Below, in pieces: positions 1,627-15,295 of a DNA stretch of 36,809 bases (position 1 is its first letter; each line of letters starts with the position of its first letter). Below the pieces are notes generated by a model that was not told the DNA's origin, did no database searches, and worked only from the letters and a program-made list of their open reading frames with translations. The stretch is from Treponema sp. (GTDB taxonomy: Bacteria; Spirochaetota; Spirochaetia; Treponematales; Breznakiellaceae). Where the stretch lies: NCBI GenBank assembly GCA_031283725.1, contig JAITBG010000157.1, positions 1 through 36,809 of the forward strand. The letters run 5' to 3'. Made by a program: the position numbers and the translations under genes.

Positions 1627-2451
1627 ATGGCGGAGCAAAGACCTGAGATTGCGAATACTATTCAAACCGGCGTATTCAAAACCAATTATCACGATGTGGG
1701 TGGGGGTTTTCCGGTAACTCTGCTCCACGGTTCCGGTCCGGGGGTAACCGCCTGGGCAAATTGGAATAAGCTTTTTCCATTATTAAAAGATGAATTCCGG
1801 ATTATCGCGCCGGATATGTCCGGTTTTGGCTTTACGGAGCGGGTTGCCGGCAGGGTAGAGACTATGAACGGCTGGGTTCAGCAGACCATCGATCTGCTGG
1901 ACGCTCTGAAAATTGAAAAAACCAACCTGGTGGGTAATTCCTTTGGCGGAGCTCTGGCCCTGTCCCTGGCGATAAAACACCCCCGGCGGATAAACAAACT
2001 GGTCCTCATGGGGGCCATGGGAGTAAGCTTCCCCATCACCTACGGCCTGGATCAGGTTTGGGGTTACGAGCCTTCGGTGGAGCACATGGAAGAACTGCTG
2101 GAAATTTTCACGTATGACCACAGTTTTGCTACCAAGGAACTGGTCAGGACCCGGTACGAGTCCAGCATACAGCGGGGGTTCCAGGAAAGCTTCCACGCCC
2201 TGTTCCCCGAGCCCCGGCAGAAAGGGGTGGAGGCCATGGCGGGAAACCAACGCTATATCCGGAACATCCCCCACGAGACCCTTATCGTCCACGGCCGGGA
2301 AGACCGGGTTATCCCCTTGGAGAATTCCTTTAGGCTGCTTCAGCTGATAGACAATGCCCAGCTTCACGTGTTCGGCAAATGCGGTCACTGGACTCAGATT
2401 GAACATACCCAGGAATTCGCGGACCTGATCCGTGCCTTCTTCAAGAGATAA
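1627..2451 (+). CDS. xylF: 2-hydroxymuconate-semialdehyde hydrolase (XylF/DmpD-type alpha/beta hydrolase)
   Basis: This 274-residue alpha/beta hydrolase cleaves the C-C bond of the ring-fission product of catechols, giving 2-oxopent-4-enoate (2-hydroxypenta-2,4-dienoate) plus formate or another acid. Visible signs are the oxyanion segment HGSGPGVTAWANW (about 34-46), the nucleophile elbow GNSFGG (Ser105), the acid in GREDRVIP (Asp226) and the catalytic His254 in CGHW. Length and motifs match XylF/DmpD/TodF. It is the first gene of the operon, with AAGGAG at the ideal distance, and the next gene starts two bases after its stop. The order hydrolase-hydratase-dehydrogenase-aldolase equals xylF-J-Q-K of the TOL plasmid. 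The precise acyl side-chain preference cannot be read from sequence. Confidence 0.9.
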   Translation: MAEQRPEIANTIQTGVFKTNYHDVGGGFPVTLLHGSGPGVTAWANWNKLFPLLKDEFRIIAPDMSGFGFTERVAGRVETMNGWVQQTIDLLDALKIEKTNLVGNSFGGALALSLAIKHPRRINKLVLMGAMGVSFPITYGLDQVWGYEPSVEHMEELLEIFTYDHSFATKELVRTRYESSIQRGFQESFHALFPEPRQKGVEAMAGNQRYIRNIPHETLIVHGREDRVIPLENSFRLLQLIDNAQLHVFGKCGHWTQIEHTQEFADLIRAFFKR

Positions 2452-2453
2452 TT

Positions 2454-3236
2454 ATGGATGCCGCAAAGATCAAGGCTTGCGCCGATAAGCTTTTTCAGGC
2501 GGAACGGAACCGTAAGGCTATTGCGCCTCTGACCGATCATGATAGTAGTATTACTGTGGACGATGCTTATCGGATTCAGTTGGAGAACGTAAAAACCGTC
2601 CTCGCCATGGGGCATACTATTTCCGGGAAGAAGATCGGCCTTACCTCTCCGGGTATCCAGAGGCAGATGGGGGTCAGCGAACCCGATTACGGTCACCTCT
2701 ACGCCGCCATGGACTGCAAAGACGGGAGAATCAATACCGCGGCTCTGCTTCAGCCTAAGATTGAAGGGGAGATAGCCTTTGTTCTCAAGGCGGATCTTTC
2801 GGGCGGCAAGGTTACCAGAGAAGATGTGGTCAGGGCTACGGACTATGTGGCTGCGTCCTTTGAAATTGTGGACAGCCGTATTGCGGATTGGAAGATTAAG
2901 CTGCCGGACACCATATCCGATAACGCTTCCTCAGGGCGTTACATCCTGGGGGCGGGGAAGTTCAAGCTCAGCGAGGTGGATCTGCCCACGGTGACTATGA
3001 AGCTCTACAAGAACCGGGGCGAGCCGGCCGGCGAAGGTACCGGCGCGGCGGTTATGGGAGACCCCTGTATTTCCGTGGCCTGGCTTGCGAACCGGCTCTG
3101 GTGTTACGGAGTAACCCTCAAGGCCGGGGAGGTGATCCTCTCCGGGGCTTTCTCCGCGGCGCCCCCGGCGGCCAAGGGCGATAGTTTTAGGGCGGAATTT
3201 TCTACCCTTGGCGTGGTCGAAGCGCAGTTTATCTAA
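2454..3236 (+). CDS. xylJ: 2-oxopent-4-enoate hydratase (XylJ/DmpE/MhpD family)
   Basis: It adds water to 2-oxopent-4-enoate to give 4-hydroxy-2-oxovalerate. The protein has 260 residues, as usual for the family. The divalent-metal ligands appear as E-x-E in EGEIAF (Glu104, Glu106) and Glu137 in SFEIVDSR. Other family signatures are GKKIGLTS, the GVSEPDYG segment, the DTISDNASSG loop and VAWLANRL. The related 4-oxalocrotonate decarboxylase (XylI/DmpH) shares this fold. The hydratase is preferred because the operon holds a hydrolase and no dehydrogenase or tautomerase. It starts two bases after the hydrolase stop, implying translational coupling. Confidence 0.87.
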   Translation: MDAAKIKACADKLFQAERNRKAIAPLTDHDSSITVDDAYRIQLENVKTVLAMGHTISGKKIGLTSPGIQRQMGVSEPDYGHLYAAMDCKDGRINTAALLQPKIEGEIAFVLKADLSGGKVTREDVVRATDYVAASFEIVDSRIADWKIKLPDTISDNASSGRYILGAGKFKLSEVDLPTVTMKLYKNRGEPAGEGTGAAVMGDPCISVAWLANRLWCYGVTLKAGEVILSGAFSAAPPAAKGDSFRAEFSTLGVVEAQFI

Positions 3237-3260: not shown

Positions 3261-4130
3261 ATGGAGAAAATAAAAGTAGGCATCATCGGACCGGGAAATA
3301 TCGGCAGTGATTTGATGTATAAAGTCATGAAGAGTAAGTATCTCCAAATGCGCCTGATGACCGGCATAGTAGAGTCCGAGGGTATCAAGCGGGCCGCAGC
3401 CCTGGGGTTTAAGACTTCCATTAAAGGTGTGGACGCCGTGGCGGAGGATCGGGAGATCAGGTTTGTTTTCGATGCCACAAGCGCCAAGGCCCATATCCAC
3501 AATTCGGCTGTCCTCAAGGCTGCGGGAAAGATCGCCATCGACATGACCCCGGCGGCGGTGGGGCCCTACGTGGTGCCCTGCGTGAACCTGGACAAACTTA
3601 CCGACGAGGTGGACTTTAACATGGTTACCTGCGGAGGCCAGGCCACGGTGCCCATTGCTTACGCTATTAACCGGGCGGCGGACGTGGAGTACGTGGAGAT
3701 CGTTTCCTGTATTTCCTCCAAGAGCGCCGGACCCGGGACCCGGGCAAACATCGACGAATTTACCGAAACGACTTCCAAGGCCCTCCGTGTGGTGGGCGGT
3801 GCGGATCGCAGTAAAGCTATCATCGTGCTGAATCCCGCGGAACCGCCTCTAATGATGACCAATACGGTCTACGCCCTGGTAAAAAACCCGGACGTGAAGA
3901 ACATTACCGAATCGGTGAACGATATTATCCGGGAAGTACAGGGTTATGTTCCTGGGTACCGCCTGCGGCTGCCTCCGGTGATTGACGGCAACAAGGTAAC
4001 GGTGATAGTGGAAGTTGAGGGCGCGGGGGATTTTCTGCCCGCATATTCGGGGAACCTGGATATCATCAATCAGGCGGCAGTGGCGGTGGCGGAAAAGCTG
4101 GCAGTAAAACTGCTGTCAGGGAAGGCATAA
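3261..4130 (+). CDS. xylQ: Acetaldehyde dehydrogenase (acylating), XylQ/DmpF type
   Basis: It oxidises acetaldehyde with NAD+ and CoA to acetyl-CoA. The N-terminus is a Rossmann nucleotide site ([13 protein letters not shown], about 6-18), and the catalytic cysteine is in [11 protein letters not shown] (Cys124). The product, 289 residues, is slightly shorter than DmpF (about 310). It is followed with zero spacing (TAAATG) by the aldolase gene. In the Pseudomonas enzymes these two proteins form a complex that channels acetaldehyde, and the tight coupling here fits equimolar production. The start is supported by a G-rich GGGGGG just before ATG 3261. Confidence 0.92.
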
Positions 4131-5150
4131 ATGGGCGGCGCGAAAATAAACATAGTGGATACCACCCTGCGAGATGGCAGCCATGCGGTAAGCCATTCCT
4201 TTACCGTCGAACAGGCCGGGACCATAGCCCGCGGCCTGGATAAAGCCGGAGTTGATATTATTGAGATTAGCCACGGGGACGGTATCACCGGCTCGTCGAT
4301 TAACTACGGATTTTCCAAGGTGGATGAGTTGGAACTAATCGAAGCGGCGGGGAAGGTGATAAAGAACGCCAAGTTGGCGGTATTGCTCCTGCCGGGGATA
4401 GGGACCATTGAGGATTTGAAAAAAGCCCGTGAGCGGGGCGCCAACGCGGTACGGGTAGCCACCCACGTTACGGAAGCGGATATCGCCATCCAGCATATCG
4501 CCTGGGCAAAACAGGCGGGGATGTTTACCGTGGGCTTTCTCATGATGGTCCACATGGCAAGCCCTGAAAAGATCGTGGAACAGGGGAAGATTTTTGTCGA
4601 TGCCGGAGCGGACTATATCAATCTGGCGGATTCATCGGGATACATGGTTCCCGAGGAGGTCCGCGCCCGGATCGGGGCGCTTAAGGAGGCGATTAGTATC
4701 CCTGTGGGCTTTCATTCCCACAACAACCTTGGGTTAGCGGCAGCCAATTCTTTGGCGGCGGTGGAGGAAGGCGCCCTGTACATCGACGTCACCTGCCGGG
4801 GGCTGGGCGCCGGCGCGGGAAATACCCAGGGAGAGGTTTTCTGCGCGGTACTGGAACGGCTTGGTTACAATACCGGGGTGAAAAGCTACGAGTTGATGGA
4901 CCTTGCGGAGGATGTGGTAGAGCCCCTGATGCAGCGGCCCCAGGTGATTCGCACGGATTCTCTCATGCTGGGGTATGCGGGGGTGTATTCCAGTTTCCTG
5001 CTCCATACCCGGAGGGCGGCGGAAAAATTCGGCATACCTCCCCGGGACATCCTGGTGGAGCTTGGTAAGCGCCGCATGGTGGGGGGCCAGGAAGATATGA
5101 TCGTTGATGTGGCTTACGAGCTTTCTCAGAAGAAAAAACAGGGAGAGTAG
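4131..5150 (+). CDS. xylK: 4-hydroxy-2-oxovalerate aldolase (XylK/DmpG type)
   Basis: It cleaves 4-hydroxy-2-oxovalerate to pyruvate and acetaldehyde and belongs to the DRE-TIM metallolyase fold. Visible residues: VDTTLRDGSHAV (Arg14, Asp15, His18), metal-binding GFHSHNN (His195, His197), and CRGLGAGAGNTQGE. Its 339 residues match the family. The C-terminal part is the communication domain that contacts the acetaldehyde dehydrogenase in DmpFG. The pyruvate and acetyl-CoA formed by the pair would enter central or acetogenic metabolism of the host (inference). The ATG directly abuts the upstream stop codon. Confidence 0.93.
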   Translation: MGGAKINIVDTTLRDGSHAVSHSFTVEQAGTIARGLDKAGVDIIEISHGDGITGSSINYGFSKVDELELIEAAGKVIKNAKLAVLLLPGIGTIEDLKKARERGANAVRVATHVTEADIAIQHIAWAKQAGMFTVGFLMMVHMASPEKIVEQGKIFVDAGADYINLADSSGYMVPEEVRARIGALKEAISIPVGFHSHNNLGLAAANSLAAVEEGALYIDVTCRGLGAGAGNTQGEVFCAVLERLGYNTGVKSYELMDLAEDVVEPLMQRPQVIRTDSLMLGYAGVYSSFLLHTRRAAEKFGIPPRDILVELGKRRMVGGQEDMIVDVAYELSQKKKQGE

Positions 5151-5157
5151 GGCTGTC

Positions 5158-5447
5158 TTGGCACGGGTCTGGCAGGTGTCGGTACCGGAAACGGGGAAAC
5201 AGTTTTCCTGCAAGGAAGATGAATCGGTTTTTGCCGCCATGATCCGCGCCCGTACCGGTCCGGTGAGTTATGGCTGTGCCGGTGGAGGATGCGGCGCCTG
5301 CCGTATGCGGATAAGTTCCGGGGAATGGTTTAAAACATGAGCGCCGCCCATGTTACGGAGGATAATAAAAAAGAGGGGATAGTTCTTTTATGTTGTGTTC
5401 AACCCCGCGGTAATCTTACGATTCGGCGGGTGGAAACAAATATTTAG
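5158..5447 (+). pseudogene. XylT-like 2Fe-2S ferredoxin, split by a -1 frameshift
   Basis: XylT-type plant-like ferredoxins reduce the oxidised active-site iron of catechol 2,3-dioxygenase. The first part (TTG 5158 to TGA 5340, 60 residues) carries C-x4-C-x2-C in YGCAGGGCGACRM but stops after SGEWFKT. The expected second half is intact in another frame, from ATG 5337 to TAG 5447 (36 residues, MSAAHVTEDN... LLCCVQPRGNLTI), and supplies the fourth cysteine. One added base near TTTAAAACATGA would restore a normal protein. The stop and the second ATG overlap as ATGA, so re-initiation of the second half is also possible. The track ORF from 5104 is extended by overlap with the aldolase gene; TTG 5158 is my start. 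Position just before the dioxygenase matches xylT-xylE. Confidence 0.8.
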
Positions 5448-5463
5448 CGCATGGAGGTTTGAT

Positions 5464-6455: not shown

Positions 6456-7814
6456 TTACTCCGTCAGCGCCGCCACGCCTGCGCCGAAGAGACTGGCCTG
6501 TTCCACCGGGGATATGACGCAGAACCGGGGTTTGTCCGCGGCCAGCATGGTGTGCAGGTAGGATTCCAGGCTTTCCCGCATGCCCTTGTATCGCACGTAG
6601 GTGGTTCCTTCCACGGCGATCCGTACCGGGGCGAGGGGGTCATGGCCCGCGTCCATCCGTTCCACCGTAGCGGCGAGCACCCCCGCGGAAAGCAGGGCCG
6701 CCCGCTCCGTAATAATGGAACTGAGGTAGACAAGCGAGGCCAGGGCATCCCGTTCATCCTTATCAAAAAGTTTTCCCAGCGGGCCCTCCATAGCCAGGGG
6801 AGCGCGTAAAAAGGCGTTGAGATCCTGGGTTTGCAGGGTAGGCCAGGCGAGGAATTCGCCGGACTTTTTGAATTTCAAAACGCCATCCCTAACAGCCTGC
6901 TTGAGAATATGAAAACTGAGGGGACCCAGGTAAGCGCCGGCGGAGGCTTTTTCCTGGGTATAGGTCCCGGGGTTTTTTGTGGTGGCATCGTATTCTTTGT
7001 CCAGGTATCCCAAGTAGCGGGGGAAAAAGGTACCGGTCTCACAGACTACAATCTGGGGGGATGTTTCGGACTGAAAGCCAATCTTGGGGATGCTCTTTTC
7101 TGGGTATGCGGTGTTGACTCCGGTTCCCAGAATAAAGCCGATCACCGGGCCGCCGGCTATACCATACTCGTCCAGCCCATCCCCTCTGCCAATGTTCGGG
7201 GAGATCTCCACCGTGCCGCAGAGCAGGGTAGCCACAGTATCGTTGAGGAGTACGATTTTTTCCGGTACCTTTAGTTTTTTTCGTACCAATGCGTCCCGGA
7301 GTCCCTGGCCTATGGACTTGCCATGTACCTCAGGAGCGTCCACTTCCTTACTGAAGGACATGAGTATCCCGTCCGCTTCCCTGGTTATCTCCATGGGGTA
7401 TGAAAAACAAAATCCGATGCCTTCAACCTTTCTCTCCCCCGCAAGAAGGGGTTCGGTAACATCGGCGATTGCGTCGAAAAACTGTTCCGCGCTCACCCGG
7501 CCATTAGTGCCGGGCATGGGGACCTTCCGGGTCCCTTCCGCAAGAGCCTTGCCCTTTTCGTCAAACCGTACCCTGGCTGCCCGGAGGTTTGTTCCCCCGG
7601 CGTCCAGGGCTATCACGGTTCTCCCCACAGGTATCCTGCTTCCACTGTTAATATAGGCTGGGATCATGGGGAGACTGGAACTCTGACCCCGCAGGCCCCG
7701 TTCAATATCAAAAAGGATATCCCGTACCAGGCAAAGGGGGTCGATAATATCATAATGAAACCCGTGGTATCGGGCAAACTCGGCTAATTCTTTAGGATTA
7801 AATGACGAACTCAT
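6456..7814 (-). CDS. hxk: Hexokinase (spirochaete type)
   Basis: It phosphorylates glucose or a similar hexose with ATP at the entry to glycolysis. The 452-residue protein shows the hexokinase/actin-fold motifs in order: ALDAGGTNLRAARV (phosphate 1, about 68-81), a sugar-binding FCFSYPMEI segment, LLNDTVATLL (connect region with the catalytic Asp) and FILGTGVNTAY. These are features of the eukaryote-like hexokinase family also found in Treponema pallidum, not of the ROK glucokinases. GGAGG lies nine bases before the ATG at 7814. It ends just after the meta-operon terminator and is convergent with it. Confidence 0.88.
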   Translation of the reverse strand: MSSSFNPKELAEFARYHGFHYDIIDPLCLVRDILFDIERGLRGQSSSLPMIPAYINSGSRIPVGRTVIALDAGGTNLRAARVRFDEKGKALAEGTRKVPMPGTNGRVSAEQFFDAIADVTEPLLAGERKVEGIGFCFSYPMEITREADGILMSFSKEVDAPEVHGKSIGQGLRDALVRKKLKVPEKIVLLNDTVATLLCGTVEISPNIGRGDGLDEYGIAGGPVIGFILGTGVNTAYPEKSIPKIGFQSETSPQIVVCETGTFFPRYLGYLDKEYDATTKNPGTYTQEKASAGAYLGPLSFHILKQAVRDGVLKFKKSGEFLAWPTLQTQDLNAFLRAPLAMEGPLGKLFDKDERDALASLVYLSSIITERAALLSAGVLAATVERMDAGHDPLAPVRIAVEGTTYVRYKGMRESLESYLHTMLAADKPRFCVISPVEQASLFGAGVAALTE

Positions 7815-8879: not shown

Positions 8880-10574
8880 ATGGCAACGCGTAAATATGTT
8901 ATCGGTCTGGATTTTGGAACTAAATCATGCCGTGCCCTTGTGGCGGACGCAAAAACCGGGGCAGTTGCCGCCCTGGGTGTCCAGGATTATGTACACGGGG
9001 TGATGGACAGGGTATTGCCCGATGGAACTACGCGCTTAGGCGCCGATTGGGCCTTACAGGATCCCCAGGACTATATTGAAGCGCTGGAACATACGGTACA
9101 TGAGGCGCTTACGCAGGCTGCCTTGAGCGGAGATGACATTATCGGTCTTTCTGTGGATTTTACCGCTTCTACCATCCTGCCCATTGACGCGTCGGGGGTT
9201 CCGCTTTGTACCTGGGAAAAATACAGCCGCCGGCCCCATGCTTATGTAAAATTATGGAAGCACCATGCGTCGGAACCTCAGGCCAGGCAAATTAACAGAC
9301 TTTTAAGGGAAAAGCAGGTATTGGATCATCCGCGTTACGGTGGCAAGGTCTCTTCCGAGTTGATGCTGCCCAAGGTTTTGCAAATCCTCCAGGAGGACCC
9401 TGAAATATACGAAGCGGCGGATAAAATTCTTGAAGCGGCGGATTGGCTCACCCTGCTCATGACAGGGGAGGAACGGCGTTCCGGCAGCACCGCAGCGTAT
9501 AAAGCCATGTGGAGTGAAGAGGAAGGGTACCTGCCCTCTGAATTATTGAAAGCCCTGGACCCCAGGCTTGAACATTTTGTGGAACAGAAGTTGAGAGGCG
9601 CTGTCTGGCCCGTGGGCAGTAAATTAGGGGAACTAAACGCGGCCTGGGCGGAGCGGCTGGGCCTTTTACCGGGTACCGCCGTGGGGACGAGCATTATTGA
9701 TTCCCATGCGGGAATGCCCGGATGCGGTATTGCTAAACCCAGGCAGATGATGCTTATCATCGGAACCTCCAGTGTGCAGGCGGTGTTGAGCGAACAACCC
9801 TATTCCGGCAAAGGTATCATGGGCGGAGTAAAGGGCGGTATCATTCCCGGTTATTATGCTCTGGAAACGGGCTTGGCCGGGGTGGGGGATATATTTGAGT
9901 GGTTCATCAATACTTCCGTCCCCGCTTCGTACAAAGCCAAGGCTGATGAAGCGGGTCTTAATCTGTTCCGGTATCTCAGCAATCTGGCTCAAAATTCCAA
10001 ACCCGGCGAAAGCGGTCTTTTGGCGCTGGACTGGTGGAGCGGAAACAAGACCCCCTTTGTAAATGCCAATCTTTCCGGCCTCATTCTCGGACTGTCTCTG
10101 ACCACGAAGCCCGAGGAGATCTACCGGGCCTTGGTAGAGACTACCGGATTCGGTACCCGGATGATTATGGAAGCCTTTGAAACTGCGGGAGTTCCCGTCG
10201 ACGAAATTTATGCCTGCGGGGGCATTGCCGAAAAAGATCCCTTTCTTATGCAAATTTTTGCGGATATAGCTAACCGGGAAATAAAAGTATCCGCCGTGGA
10301 ACAGACCGCGGCCTTTGGGGCTGCCATGTACGCATCGGTGGCCGCCGGATCGGAGCGGGGCGGCTGCAATCATATTACCGAGGCGGTGTCGGCCATGAGC
10401 CGGGCCAGGGGCCAAACTTACCGGCCGAACCCGGCCCATGCCGCAAAGTATTCGCTGCTGTATGGGATATACGAAGAACTCTGCGGCTACTTTGGTGAAA
10501 GAAGTGATACAATGAAACAGCTCAAAGCCCTGCGTGTGCAGGGGATCAGCCAAACGAAAAAAGGGTCCTTATGA
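8880..10574 (+). CDS. araB: Ribulokinase-like FGGY carbohydrate kinase
   Basis: This 564-residue FGGY kinase has the length and features of ribulokinase (E. coli AraB is 566): IGLDFGTKSCRALV at the N-terminus, KLWKHHASEPQA, a C-terminal FGGY signature region, DWWSGNKTPF and the ATP-binding GGIAEKDPFLMQIFAD. The family reaction is ATP-dependent phosphorylation of L-ribulose (some members accept related ketopentoses). The arabinose isomerase and ribulose-phosphate epimerase genes are not adjacent, so the substrate assignment rests on family resemblance only. The gene overlaps the RpiR regulator by ATGA and is followed by a monosaccharide importer, pointing to a pentose-use locus. Confidence 0.82.
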   Translation: MATRKYVIGLDFGTKSCRALVADAKTGAVAALGVQDYVHGVMDRVLPDGTTRLGADWALQDPQDYIEALEHTVHEALTQAALSGDDIIGLSVDFTASTILPIDASGVPLCTWEKYSRRPHAYVKLWKHHASEPQARQINRLLREKQVLDHPRYGGKVSSELMLPKVLQILQEDPEIYEAADKILEAADWLTLLMTGEERRSGSTAAYKAMWSEEEGYLPSELLKALDPRLEHFVEQKLRGAVWPVGSKLGELNAAWAERLGLLPGTAVGTSIIDSHAGMPGCGIAKPRQMMLIIGTSSVQAVLSEQPYSGKGIMGGVKGGIIPGYYALETGLAGVGDIFEWFINTSVPASYKAKADEAGLNLFRYLSNLAQNSKPGESGLLALDWWSGNKTPFVNANLSGLILGLSLTTKPEEIYRALVETTGFGTRMIMEAFETAGVPVDEIYACGGIAEKDPFLMQIFADIANREIKVSAVEQTAAFGAAMYASVAAGSERGGCNHITEAVSAMSRARGQTYRPNPAHAAKYSLLYGIYEELCGYFGERSDTMKQLKALRVQGISQTKKGSL

Positions 10575-11576: not shown

Positions 11577-12665
11577 ATGAAGGGAAGAAAGGCATTGTGT
11601 ATGATGCTGCTGGCATTGGCATTCTTCATGACGGGAACACTGGCTAACGCTAAAGGAAAGAGTGACTCTTCCGGTGAGAAAGTGTACATTGGCTTCAGCA
11701 TGGTTTCAATGGAAAACGAAGCGTGGGCTACTATGGCCGCCGGAGCCAAGGCTTTTGTTGAAAGCCTGCCTCCGGGAGCGGCGGAACTGGTAATCATGAC
11801 CGGCAGGGAAGCTCCTGTACAATGGGACAACATCCAAAATTTTGTTGCCAAATATGGTTCAAGCGGGATACTGTGGGTTGACCCGATTACTATCGGTATT
11901 ACCCCAAACATTGCGGCATTGTGTGAACAGGAAGGTGTTTTTTATGTTAATCTGTTCAACAAGGAAGCAAGCATAGTCCCCACGGATTATTCCAAATGGG
12001 TGGTATTCATGACCCAGGACGACGAAGCGAACGGATACCTTGCCGCAAAAACGCTCTTTGATTCCATTGGCGGAAAAGGCAATGTGCTGGAGCTGTACGG
12101 CGTACAGGGTAACGATGCTTCCTTTAAACGGAACCTGGGTCTGAAAAGGGCCTTAAGTGAATATCCGAACATTACGCTACTGGATACTCAGATTGGCGAT
12201 TTCTCCGGTCCTGCGGCGCAGACGGTTACGGAAAACTGGCTTACTAAATATCAGGCGGCGGGCACGACCATTGACGCCATATTCTCCGCCGGCGATACCA
12301 TGGCCCTGGGCGCTATTGAAGCGCTAAAGCAGAAAGGTCTTGCCGGCACGGTTAAGGTATGCGGCATTGACGGTATTTCCGCCGCCCTTGACGCCGTAAA
12401 AGAAGGCACTTTGGTCAGCACCATCTATTACGATGGGTATCTTACCGGCGGCTATGGGGTATCTTATGCCTATGCGGCAAAGACCGGACGGCTCGATCCT
12501 AAAACCATGGATCAGAAACGGCGCATGTTTTATACCAAAACCATTCTGGTAACCAAAAATAATGTGGATGACATAATAACGAACTATATTAAAAACGTTC
12601 CGAAATATGATTATGCCAACCTGGATGCTGCCGTAGACAGCATAATTTCTAATCCGAAACTTTAG
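11577..12665 (+). CDS. Periplasmic sugar-binding protein of an RbsB-like ABC importer
   Basis: The first 25 residues form a signal peptide (MKGRKALCMMLLALAFFMTG... ANA-KG); no lipobox cysteine is present at the junction, so type I cleavage is likely. The mature part (about 337 residues) is a periplasmic-binding-protein type 1 fold of the ribose/galactose/arabinose group: VYIGFSMVSMENEAWATM at the start, IFSAGDTMALGAIEAL and VCGIDGISAALDAVKEG towards the end. It captures a monosaccharide in the periplasm. It leads the importer operon, and the neighbouring ribulokinase suggests a pentose ligand (inference). Confidence 0.88.
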   Translation: MKGRKALCMMLLALAFFMTGTLANAKGKSDSSGEKVYIGFSMVSMENEAWATMAAGAKAFVESLPPGAAELVIMTGREAPVQWDNIQNFVAKYGSSGILWVDPITIGITPNIAALCEQEGVFYVNLFNKEASIVPTDYSKWVVFMTQDDEANGYLAAKTLFDSIGGKGNVLELYGVQGNDASFKRNLGLKRALSEYPNITLLDTQIGDFSGPAAQTVTENWLTKYQAAGTTIDAIFSAGDTMALGAIEALKQKGLAGTVKVCGIDGISAALDAVKEGTLVSTIYYDGYLTGGYGVSYAYAAKTGRLDPKTMDQKRRMFYTKTILVTKNNVDDIITNYIKNVPKYDYANLDAAVDSIISNPKL

Positions 12666-12686
12666 ATCAGATTAGCAAAAGATTCT

Positions 12687-12710
12687 GCGGAGGGCAGCAG
12701 TGCCCTCCGC
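12687..12710 (+). promoter_or_regulatory. Intercistronic GC hairpin between binding protein and permease
   Basis: GCGGAGGGCA pairs perfectly with TGCCCTCCGC around a GCAG tetraloop. No T-tract follows. A stable stem at this spot is typical of binding-protein operons, where it protects the 5' mRNA from 3' decay or partly terminates transcription, so that binding protein is made in excess. Confidence 0.75.
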
Positions 12711-12734
12711 CTCCGATAAAAAAGGAGGGATGCG

Positions 12735-13754
12735 ATGCAGAACACAACAGCATATACGGATGGACATGATACTGTAGCAGTACAGTTTGTGCAGAAGGTA
12801 AAAAATGACGCAAGAAGGGCCGTTGTCCGCAGATTTGCGCCGGTCATAGTGCTTGTTGTAATGACTGTTTTTTCCATGATATTTGTACAGGGCTTTATGA
12901 CATGGGATAATCTTGTAAACCTGATGTTTCAAATGTCCCTGCCTCTCATATTAGCAACGGGTCTTACCTTTGTATTGCTGATTGGCGGGATTGATTTATC
13001 CCTGGAAGGAGTCATGGGATTTTCAGGCGCTGTATTTGTGCTTATGATCCCGAATTCAGTGAACAATAACAGTTTTGGATTTTTTTCTGTTATAATCATC
13101 CTGTTGTTCGGAACCTTTGTGGGCTTTATCAACGGGATTATCCATGTAAAACTGCGTATTCCTTCATTTATGGTCACCTTTGCTGTTGGCGTAATCGTGC
13201 GTGGATTTGGTATCTTGAGCTATAATTCAATACCTCCCAGCATCAGAAGCGAAGGGATTATTGCCTTTTCCAGAGGATCCGTATTAGGCATCCCTAATAT
13301 TACGGTTGTTGCTTTCGTAATCTTTTTTATTGGCTGCATTATTCTGAATTATACTGCTTTCGGACGGGCGGTATATGCAATTGGCGATAATGAAGTCAGC
13401 GCACGTACCGCAGGAATCAAAATTGAGCGGGTTAAAATCATGATATTCATGCTCTGTTCTGCCATGGTCAGCGTTGCGGGTATCATGGGAGCTGTCCGGT
13501 TGAAGCTTGGACTTGTGGGCATTGGCGATAATATGCTGTTCCCTACCATAGCGGCGGTAACCGTTGGTGGTATAACTCCGGGAATCGGCGGTATGTTTCA
13601 AACCTTTGTAGGCATAATGATCTATACAGAGCTGATTAATTATCTGACCCTTATGGGCGTTGATGCTTCTTACAAGCAGGCCATACAGGGTATCATCATT
13701 TTGATAGCCGTTGCGCTTTCCGCTACAAGAAACCGGAGAGTAATAGTTAAATGA
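12735..13754 (+). CDS. Sugar ABC importer permease 1 (RbsC family)
   Basis: This 339-residue inner-membrane permease carries multiple hydrophobic helices and the family's conserved segments: LATGLTFVLLIGGIDLSLEG in the first half and FGRAVYAIGDNEVSARTAGIKIERVKI (cytoplasmic coupling loop) in the middle. A GGAGG lies six bases before the ATG. It overlaps the ATPase gene by ATGA. A second permease follows the ATPase, so the channel is probably a heterodimer. Confidence 0.88.
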   Translation: MQNTTAYTDGHDTVAVQFVQKVKNDARRAVVRRFAPVIVLVVMTVFSMIFVQGFMTWDNLVNLMFQMSLPLILATGLTFVLLIGGIDLSLEGVMGFSGAVFVLMIPNSVNNNSFGFFSVIIILLFGTFVGFINGIIHVKLRIPSFMVTFAVGVIVRGFGILSYNSIPPSIRSEGIIAFSRGSVLGIPNITVVAFVIFFIGCIILNYTAFGRAVYAIGDNEVSARTAGIKIERVKIMIFMLCSAMVSVAGIMGAVRLKLGLVGIGDNMLFPTIAAVTVGGITPGIGGMFQTFVGIMIYTELINYLTLMGVDASYKQAIQGIIILIAVALSATRNRRVIVK

Positions 13755-15295
13755 ATACCAGTACGGATAATCGGATTCTGTTTAAGATGCGTGGTATAGG
13801 CAAGACCTACGGATCAACAGACGTCCTTGAAGACATAGACATGGATATTTATCGAGGAGAAGTAATCGGCCTGATTGGAGAGAACGGCGCGGGAAAATCC
13901 ACCCTCCTTAAAATTATTGCGGGGGTTGAGCAGGCTTCAAGCGGCACAATAGAAATGAATGGGGCTCCTTATAATGCGAAAAATGTTCTTGACGCTAACC
14001 GGCAGGGGGTCGGTATGGTGTTTCAGGAGCAATCCCTTATTCTTAACCTGACGGTGGCGCAAAATATTTTTCTGGGAAGAGAGAAATCATACTCCATAGG
14101 AAAACTAATCAATTGGGGTAAAATGAACGCCGATGCAGAGGCAGTCCTGGCCCGTATCGGTATCGATAAACACATACCGCCAAATAAAAAGGTATATGAT
14201 CTGAATTTTGTTTCCCGGCAGATGGTGGAAATAGCAAAGGTAGTGAATATAATAATACTTTCAAGCGGGTCGGGGGCGCTTCTTTTGCTGGATGAACCAA
14301 CCACGGTACTTTCAAGTGATGAAATCGAAGTGCTTTTCAAAGAAATACGCCAAATCACGCAGAATGGCGTATCGGTCATTTTTGTCTCCCATCGCCTGGA
14401 TGAAATATTGGAAATATCCAACCGTATTTATATTTTTAAGGACGGCAGAAACGTCGGCTCGGTGAATACCAAAGATGCTGATATCAATATGCTTTATGAA
14501 CGAATGGTAGGCCGGGTTACTTCCGGTATGTATTATCTTATCAACGAGCAGACTATTCCTTCGGATGAGATTGTTCTATCAGTCAATAATTTGGGCAAAT
14601 TTGGCTATTTTAAGGATGTTACGTTTGATCTTAAAAAGGGGGAAGTGCTTGGGATTTGCGGTGTTGAAGGTTCCGGCAAGGAAGAACTCTGTGCTGTGTT
14701 ATGCGGCGATGAGCCTTACACAGCAGGTACTGTAGCGGTACGGGGGAAAAAAATAAAATCGTTGGAGTCCCCCGCTGTGGCCCTTAGAAAAAGTATTCTA
14801 TCCATTCCGCGGGATCGCCGTAGGGAAGGAATGCTTGGCATGATGCCAATAAGCGATAATATCATTGTTTCGAGCTTTGCAAAAATAGCAGCACACGGTG
14901 TTTTTTCCGGTAAAAAGGTCAACAGAATCGCCTCGTACTGGGTGGATAAAATGAAAGTAAAATGTACGGGAATTAAGGAAAGAATTGATCGCCTGTCGGG
15001 TGGAAACGCGCAAAAGGTAATTTTTTCGCGGGTCATAGGCAGTGGTAGTGAGGTACTGATCCTCAACCATCCAACCCGGGGCGTTGATATCGGTGCGAAA
15101 GAAGATCTTTATAAAGCGATCCGGGAGATAACAAAAGAGGGAAAATCGGTCATTCTTCTAGGCGATACTCTGGATGAATGTATCGGCCTTTCGAGTAAAA
15201 TTTTTGTCATGAAAGACGGAATCGTGCAAAAAGAATTTCCTGCCTCTGCTGAGGCAAAGCCCGAACAAGTTGATATTGTAAAGTACATGATGTAA
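13751..15295 (+). CDS. Sugar ABC importer ATPase, RbsA/MglA-type tandem domain
   Basis: Two fused nucleotide-binding domains in 514 residues. Domain 1 has Walker A GLIGENGAGKST and Walker B LLLLDEPTTVLS, but the signature segment reads DLNFVSRQMVEIAK rather than a clear LSxGQ. Domain 2 has the usual degenerate P-loop GVEGSGKEEL and a good signature, RLSGGNAQKV. Its Walker B and catalytic glutamate are altered: LILNHPTRGVDIG in place of LILDEPTRGVD. Only one composite ATP site is likely to turn over. It powers import by the flanking permeases. Confidence 0.9.
   Translation: MNTSTDNRILFKMRGIGKTYGSTDVLEDIDMDIYRGEVIGLIGENGAGKSTLLKIIAGVEQASSGTIEMNGAPYNAKNVLDANRQGVGMVFQEQSLILNLTVAQNIFLGREKSYSIGKLINWGKMNADAEAVLARIGIDKHIPPNKKVYDLNFVSRQMVEIAKVVNIIILSSGSGALLLLDEPTTVLSSDEIEVLFKEIRQITQNGVSVIFVSHRLDEILEISNRIYIFKDGRNVGSVNTKDADINMLYERMVGRVTSGMYYLINEQTIPSDEIVLSVNNLGKFGYFKDVTFDLKKGEVLGICGVEGSGKEELCAVLCGDEPYTAGTVAVRGKKIKSLESPAVALRKSILSIPRDRRREGMLGMMPISDNIIVSSFAKIAAHGVFSGKKVNRIASYWVDKMKVKCTGIKERIDRLSGGNAQKVIFSRVIGSGSEVLILNHPTRGVDIGAKEDLYKAIREITKEGKSVILLGDTLDECIGLSSKIFVMKDGIVQKEFPASAEAKPEQVDIVKYMM

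Follow-up and report, generated by a model that had tools for sequence, protein, structure and literature searches.

The operon and its split ferredoxin gene

The window, the whole stretch of 36,809 nucleotides that we analysed, is contig 28 of a draft genome of a Treponema-type termite-gut spirochaete (2.49 Mb in 231 contigs, 79% complete). It carries an operon in which genes for a hydrolase, a hydratase, an acetaldehyde dehydrogenase and an aldolase are followed by a ferredoxin gene and a catechol 2,3-dioxygenase gene (Table 1). Our main comparison was with G004, a closed genome of the same genus (4,059,867 bases), which we take to be probably Treponema primitia. The five genes other than the ferredoxin gene are full length, free of stops and collinear with those of G004 at 82-94% protein identity; the dioxygenase, which has its own Shine-Dalgarno sequence (GGAGG, 5453-5457), is 94% identical. 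Beside this intact dioxygenase gene, the ferredoxin gene is split into two overlapping ORFs.

Table 1. Coordinates of the operon genes and of the ferredoxin junction in the window
Feature	Position	Strand	Basis or detail
Alpha/beta hydrolase, meta-cleavage product hydrolase-like, intact	1627..2451	+	Pfam and NCBIfam
2-Oxopent-4-enoate hydratase-like (DmpE type), intact	2454..3236	+	TIGR03220, 281 bits, under the NCBIfam cut-off of 409
Acylating acetaldehyde dehydrogenase (DmpF type), intact	3261..4130	+	TIGR03215
4-Hydroxy-2-oxovalerate aldolase (DmpG type), intact	4131..5150	+	TIGR03217
Ferredoxin ORF1, N-terminal two thirds, 60 aa, three cluster cysteines	5158..5340	+	TTG start, TGA stop
Junction TTTAAAACATGA	5329..5340	+	net 7 bases shorter than in all relatives
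TAA stop in the ORF2 frame, just upstream of the ORF2 ATG	5331..5333	+	read directly
Ferredoxin ORF2, C-terminal third, 36 aa, fourth cluster cysteine	5337..5447	+	-1 frame
Catechol 2,3-dioxygenase, intact, 308 aa	5464..6390	+	TIGR03211, 364 bits, cut-off 320

ORF1 starts at the TTG at 5158, downstream of a Shine-Dalgarno-like GGGAGAG (5141-5147), holds the C-x4-C-x2-C cysteines and stops at the TGA at 5338-5340. It matched Pfam Fer2 above the cut-off (E 1.8e-9), as far as profile position 52 of 77. ORF2 starts at the ATG at 5337, the conserved Met of the family, stops at 5445-5447 and contains the motif LLCC. Searched alone against Pfam, it had no family match; it shares 77-81% identity with the C-terminal third of the intact G004 ferredoxin, directly abutting ORF1. 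At the level of sequence, the likeness of the two ORFs to an intact ferredoxin is far beyond chance. The initial annotation had placed a XylT-type ferredoxin beside a catechol 2,3-dioxygenase, an assignment that the Fer2 and TIGR03211 matches and the operon context uphold. It had also described three cluster cysteines in the first ORF and the fourth in an ORF in the -1 frame, and the resemblance of ORF2 to the intact C-terminal third confirmed this division. The gene thus has the fold, sequence and dioxygenase neighbour of the XylT type, but its four cluster cysteines do not lie in one chain, and its reading frame is disrupted relative to intact orthologues, as in a pseudogene.

The intact G004 protein was modelled (pLDDT 86) with the fold of a plant-type ferredoxin and matched PDB structures at a TM of about 0.75. 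The part of it that corresponds to ORF2 comprises the fourth cysteine, the last helix and the strands that follow this helix. In this model, the usual position of the fourth cluster ligand is one that ORF1 alone cannot fill. Ferredoxins of the XylT kind reactivate oxidised extradiol dioxygenases (PMC2590616). We found no second stand-alone ferredoxin of this type in the assembled genome, which is 79% complete; most of the other Fer2 matches in the assembly belong to long open frames (583-917 codons), and one to a frame of 162 codons. An intact copy may lie in the unassembled fifth of the genome.

The junction in relatives

We gathered relatives by a dioxygenase search and a ferredoxin search, which returned termite-gut Treponema/Spirochaetaceae and a few ruminant-gut Firmicutes. 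Base-by-base comparison of 23 relative loci revealed no split ferredoxin, as all 23 were in one frame, and in a family search across 200 genomes the window ferredoxin was the only copy of its type with an internal stop. Among the loci from these searches, some genomes occur under two different labels, which leaves about 25 independent copies. In the ruminant-gut Firmicutes (L031, L033, L034 and L035), the dioxygenase is 68-72% identical to that of the termite-gut spirochaete and is adjoined by the same ferredoxin, which suggests gene transfer between gut bacteria.

Intact relatives read W/Y/F-x-x-F-K/R-x-M-S through the junction in a single frame, whereas the window reads W-F-K-T, a stop, and M-S in the -1 frame. 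The window ferredoxin is therefore seven bases short, equal to two whole codons and one base, and it is alone in missing both these codons and the frame. The two lost residues fall in a short strand (57-59) of the G004 model. The loss may have been a single 7-base deletion or separate 6-base and 1-base events; a one-step loss of seven bases is exact only with an ancestral Trp-Phe, as found in L020 and L021, whereas G004 has Trp-Glu. A further genome, G021, seemed at first to be a second split case, stopping at the same point, but there its reading frame runs open to the end of the contig. This contig end (L069, G021 contig 65) falls exactly at the same ferredoxin junction (GEWAGFK), which is probably a coincidence, although the site may be hard to assemble.

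The ATGA at 5337-5340, where ORF1 ends and ORF2 begins, is also found at this spot in 20 of the 23 intact relatives, in which it encodes Met-Ser as ATGAGC or ATGAGT. By this sequence comparison, the overlap is inherited from a conserved Met-Ser and did not evolve as a coupling site. Whenever a shift upstream leads into that frame, translation terminates at the TGA within the Met-Ser codons, so the overlap needs no selection for coupling, and its inheritance means that it provides no evidence for a designed stop-start arrangement. The case illustrates that an ATGA overlap may give the appearance of design although it descends from a conserved Met-Ser.

Accounts of the split

Most probably, the window holds an ordinary broken gene: a recent frameshift lesion has inactivated the ferredoxin gene of the catechol meta-cleavage operon. 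Of the four options offered in the initial annotation, an inactivating deletion fits best, with seven bases missing relative to all relatives. Through the net loss, the ribosome would leave the frame immediately ahead of the conserved ATG-AGC (Met-Ser), and ORF1 would then end at the TGA inside the ATGA. From the sequence and the model, its product would be a truncated protein of 60 aa, missing the C-terminal strands of the fold as well as the fourth cluster cysteine. A ribosome that terminates there may start again at the overlapping ATG and yield the 36-aa tail; reinitiation at such overlaps is documented, so ORF2 may be made. The pair would probably hold no stable cluster, so that the dioxygenase would lack the partner that usually reactivates it; the other operon genes are intact.

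The lesion appears to be young. Between the window and G004, dN/dS was 0.155 for the ORF1 part, 0.136 for the ORF2 part and 0.048 for the dioxygenase, at dS values of 0.7-0.9 that are near saturation. Long neutral decay would leave many more replacements, so the gene was either broken recently or still functions; signs of constraint remain in both halves, and selection may never have lapsed. The argument that the conserved second half speaks against long decay holds for both halves, at a dN/dS of about 0.15. When replacements were polarised with outgroups, four in the C-terminal part were attributable to the window lineage, two of them at columns where all other sequences of the set agree; in the N-terminal part, none could be so attributed. 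The ancestral stop has been lost, adding four codons, and the gene starts with TTG in the window versus ATG in the aligned relatives. Together with the C-terminal replacements, these changes are weak hints of relaxation.

It is unlikely, though the most credible of the alternatives, that the gene is in frame in the organism and that the consensus is wrong, through an assembly or sequencing artefact or a mixture of strains. The genome is a draft in 231 contigs and 79% complete, a metagenome consensus can hide strain variation, and frameshifts occur elsewhere in the same genome, one of them at a run of seven A, whereas the reciprocal test in the closed same-genus genome returned none. However, the difference at the junction is seven bases and includes two codons present in every relative, so a single miscounted A cannot account for the whole of it; the remaining A run is only four long, and some of the other lesions in the genome are nonsense codons, not run-length errors. 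An extra base in the A/T run would reopen the frame, yet the two residues common to all relatives would still be missing. Sequencing error, as initially proposed, could therefore account for the one-base component but not for the two missing codons.

To gauge the background of broken genes, we used G004 proteins to search for frameshifts. Two candidates emerged from the first pass: one is, in our judgement, probably an antisense ORF, and the other looks like two neighbouring genes that are fused in G004. A looser pass over about 118 matched genes returned five frameshift-type matches: the gene-fusion case, the ferredoxin region via an antisense ORF, and better candidates on contigs C55, C29 and C19, the last of them weak (41-43% identity). 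The in-frame stops of this pass are uncurated and include antisense ORFs. On contig 55 of the window's genome (L217, G000; 9319-10041 and 12531-13902), an ABC transporter operon is interrupted twice, by a TAG in the region of the ATPase signature (SGGQQ*RVGIARA) and, in a neighbouring gene, by a frameshift; these lesions suggest real gene loss in the organism. Contig 29 (L219, minus strand, about 7690-7710) holds the gene of an ABC ATPase of the branched-chain amino acid type, whose frame shifts at a run of seven A. Two neighbouring small genes of the window's genome (L102, 1526-1981, compared with L212, 9963-10411) are apparently fused in G004, or have been separated by indels. The other disrupted genes fit ongoing gene loss and also leave room for assembly errors.

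A functional two-chain ferredoxin, in which an accidental break fell on the conserved ATG-AGC and both pieces are co-translated via the ATGA overlap and re-associate around one cluster, is very unlikely; it alone among these readings would be a real surprise if true. Both halves remain conserved, ATGA overlaps are well documented to support termination-reinitiation in bacteria and archaea (PMC6728339), and ferredoxins that were split by design function once a ligand-binding domain is fused to them (PMC6680619, PMC9969829). Against this, two residues are missing at the seam, the ATGA is merely the inherited Met-Ser, and the GGGAGG that lies, like a Shine-Dalgarno sequence, 11 bases before that ATG in G004 is absent from the window. 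The overlapping stop and start are thus present, but no relative keeps the ferredoxin as two genes (0 of 23 split), and stop-start coupling that yields two chains, another of the initial options, is not supported.

Least probable of all is the proposed rescue of a fused ferredoxin by programmed -1 frameshifting or transcriptional slippage: TTTAAAAC looks like slippery motifs, but the zero frame reads TTT AAA ACA TGA with no X-XXY-YYZ heptamer in register, a -1 slip would be confined to two codons by the TAA of the ORF2 frame, the downstream sequence folds no better than shuffles (z -0.53) and so offers no stimulatory structure, polymerase slippage needs a longer run than A4, and the arrangement is not conserved in relatives; canonical -1 frameshifting is ruled out by the register, the upstream TAA and the unremarkable folding.

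If the ferredoxin gene is simply broken, the lesion suggests that the dioxygenase of this gut symbiont can manage without the ferredoxin that usually reactivates it, or that decay of the pathway has begun.

Comparison with known ferredoxin systems

G004, probably T. primitia, has an intact, fused ferredoxin. A catechol meta-cleavage operon of T. primitia is attributed to Lucey and Leadbetter (2014, as cited in PMC6486533), and the operon in the window is of the same kind. The locus also resembles those of the XylT-type ferredoxins (Pseudomonas xylT/dmpQ and the fdx of the Geobacillus phe operon; PMC2590616) in its neighbourhood of dioxygenase, aldolase and acetaldehyde dehydrogenase genes, its cysteine pattern and its plant-type Fer2 fold; on a Stutzerimonas plasmid, too, a XylT-kind ferredoxin gene lies near aldolase and dehydrogenase genes. 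Unlike these, the window copy lies in two frames, and a reactivation role would be assigned here by analogy. Like the engineered split ferredoxins (Atkinson et al., 2019, as cited in PMC6680619), it would comprise two chains; those were designed with added binding domains, whereas the pair in the window would be a frameshift product that lacks them.
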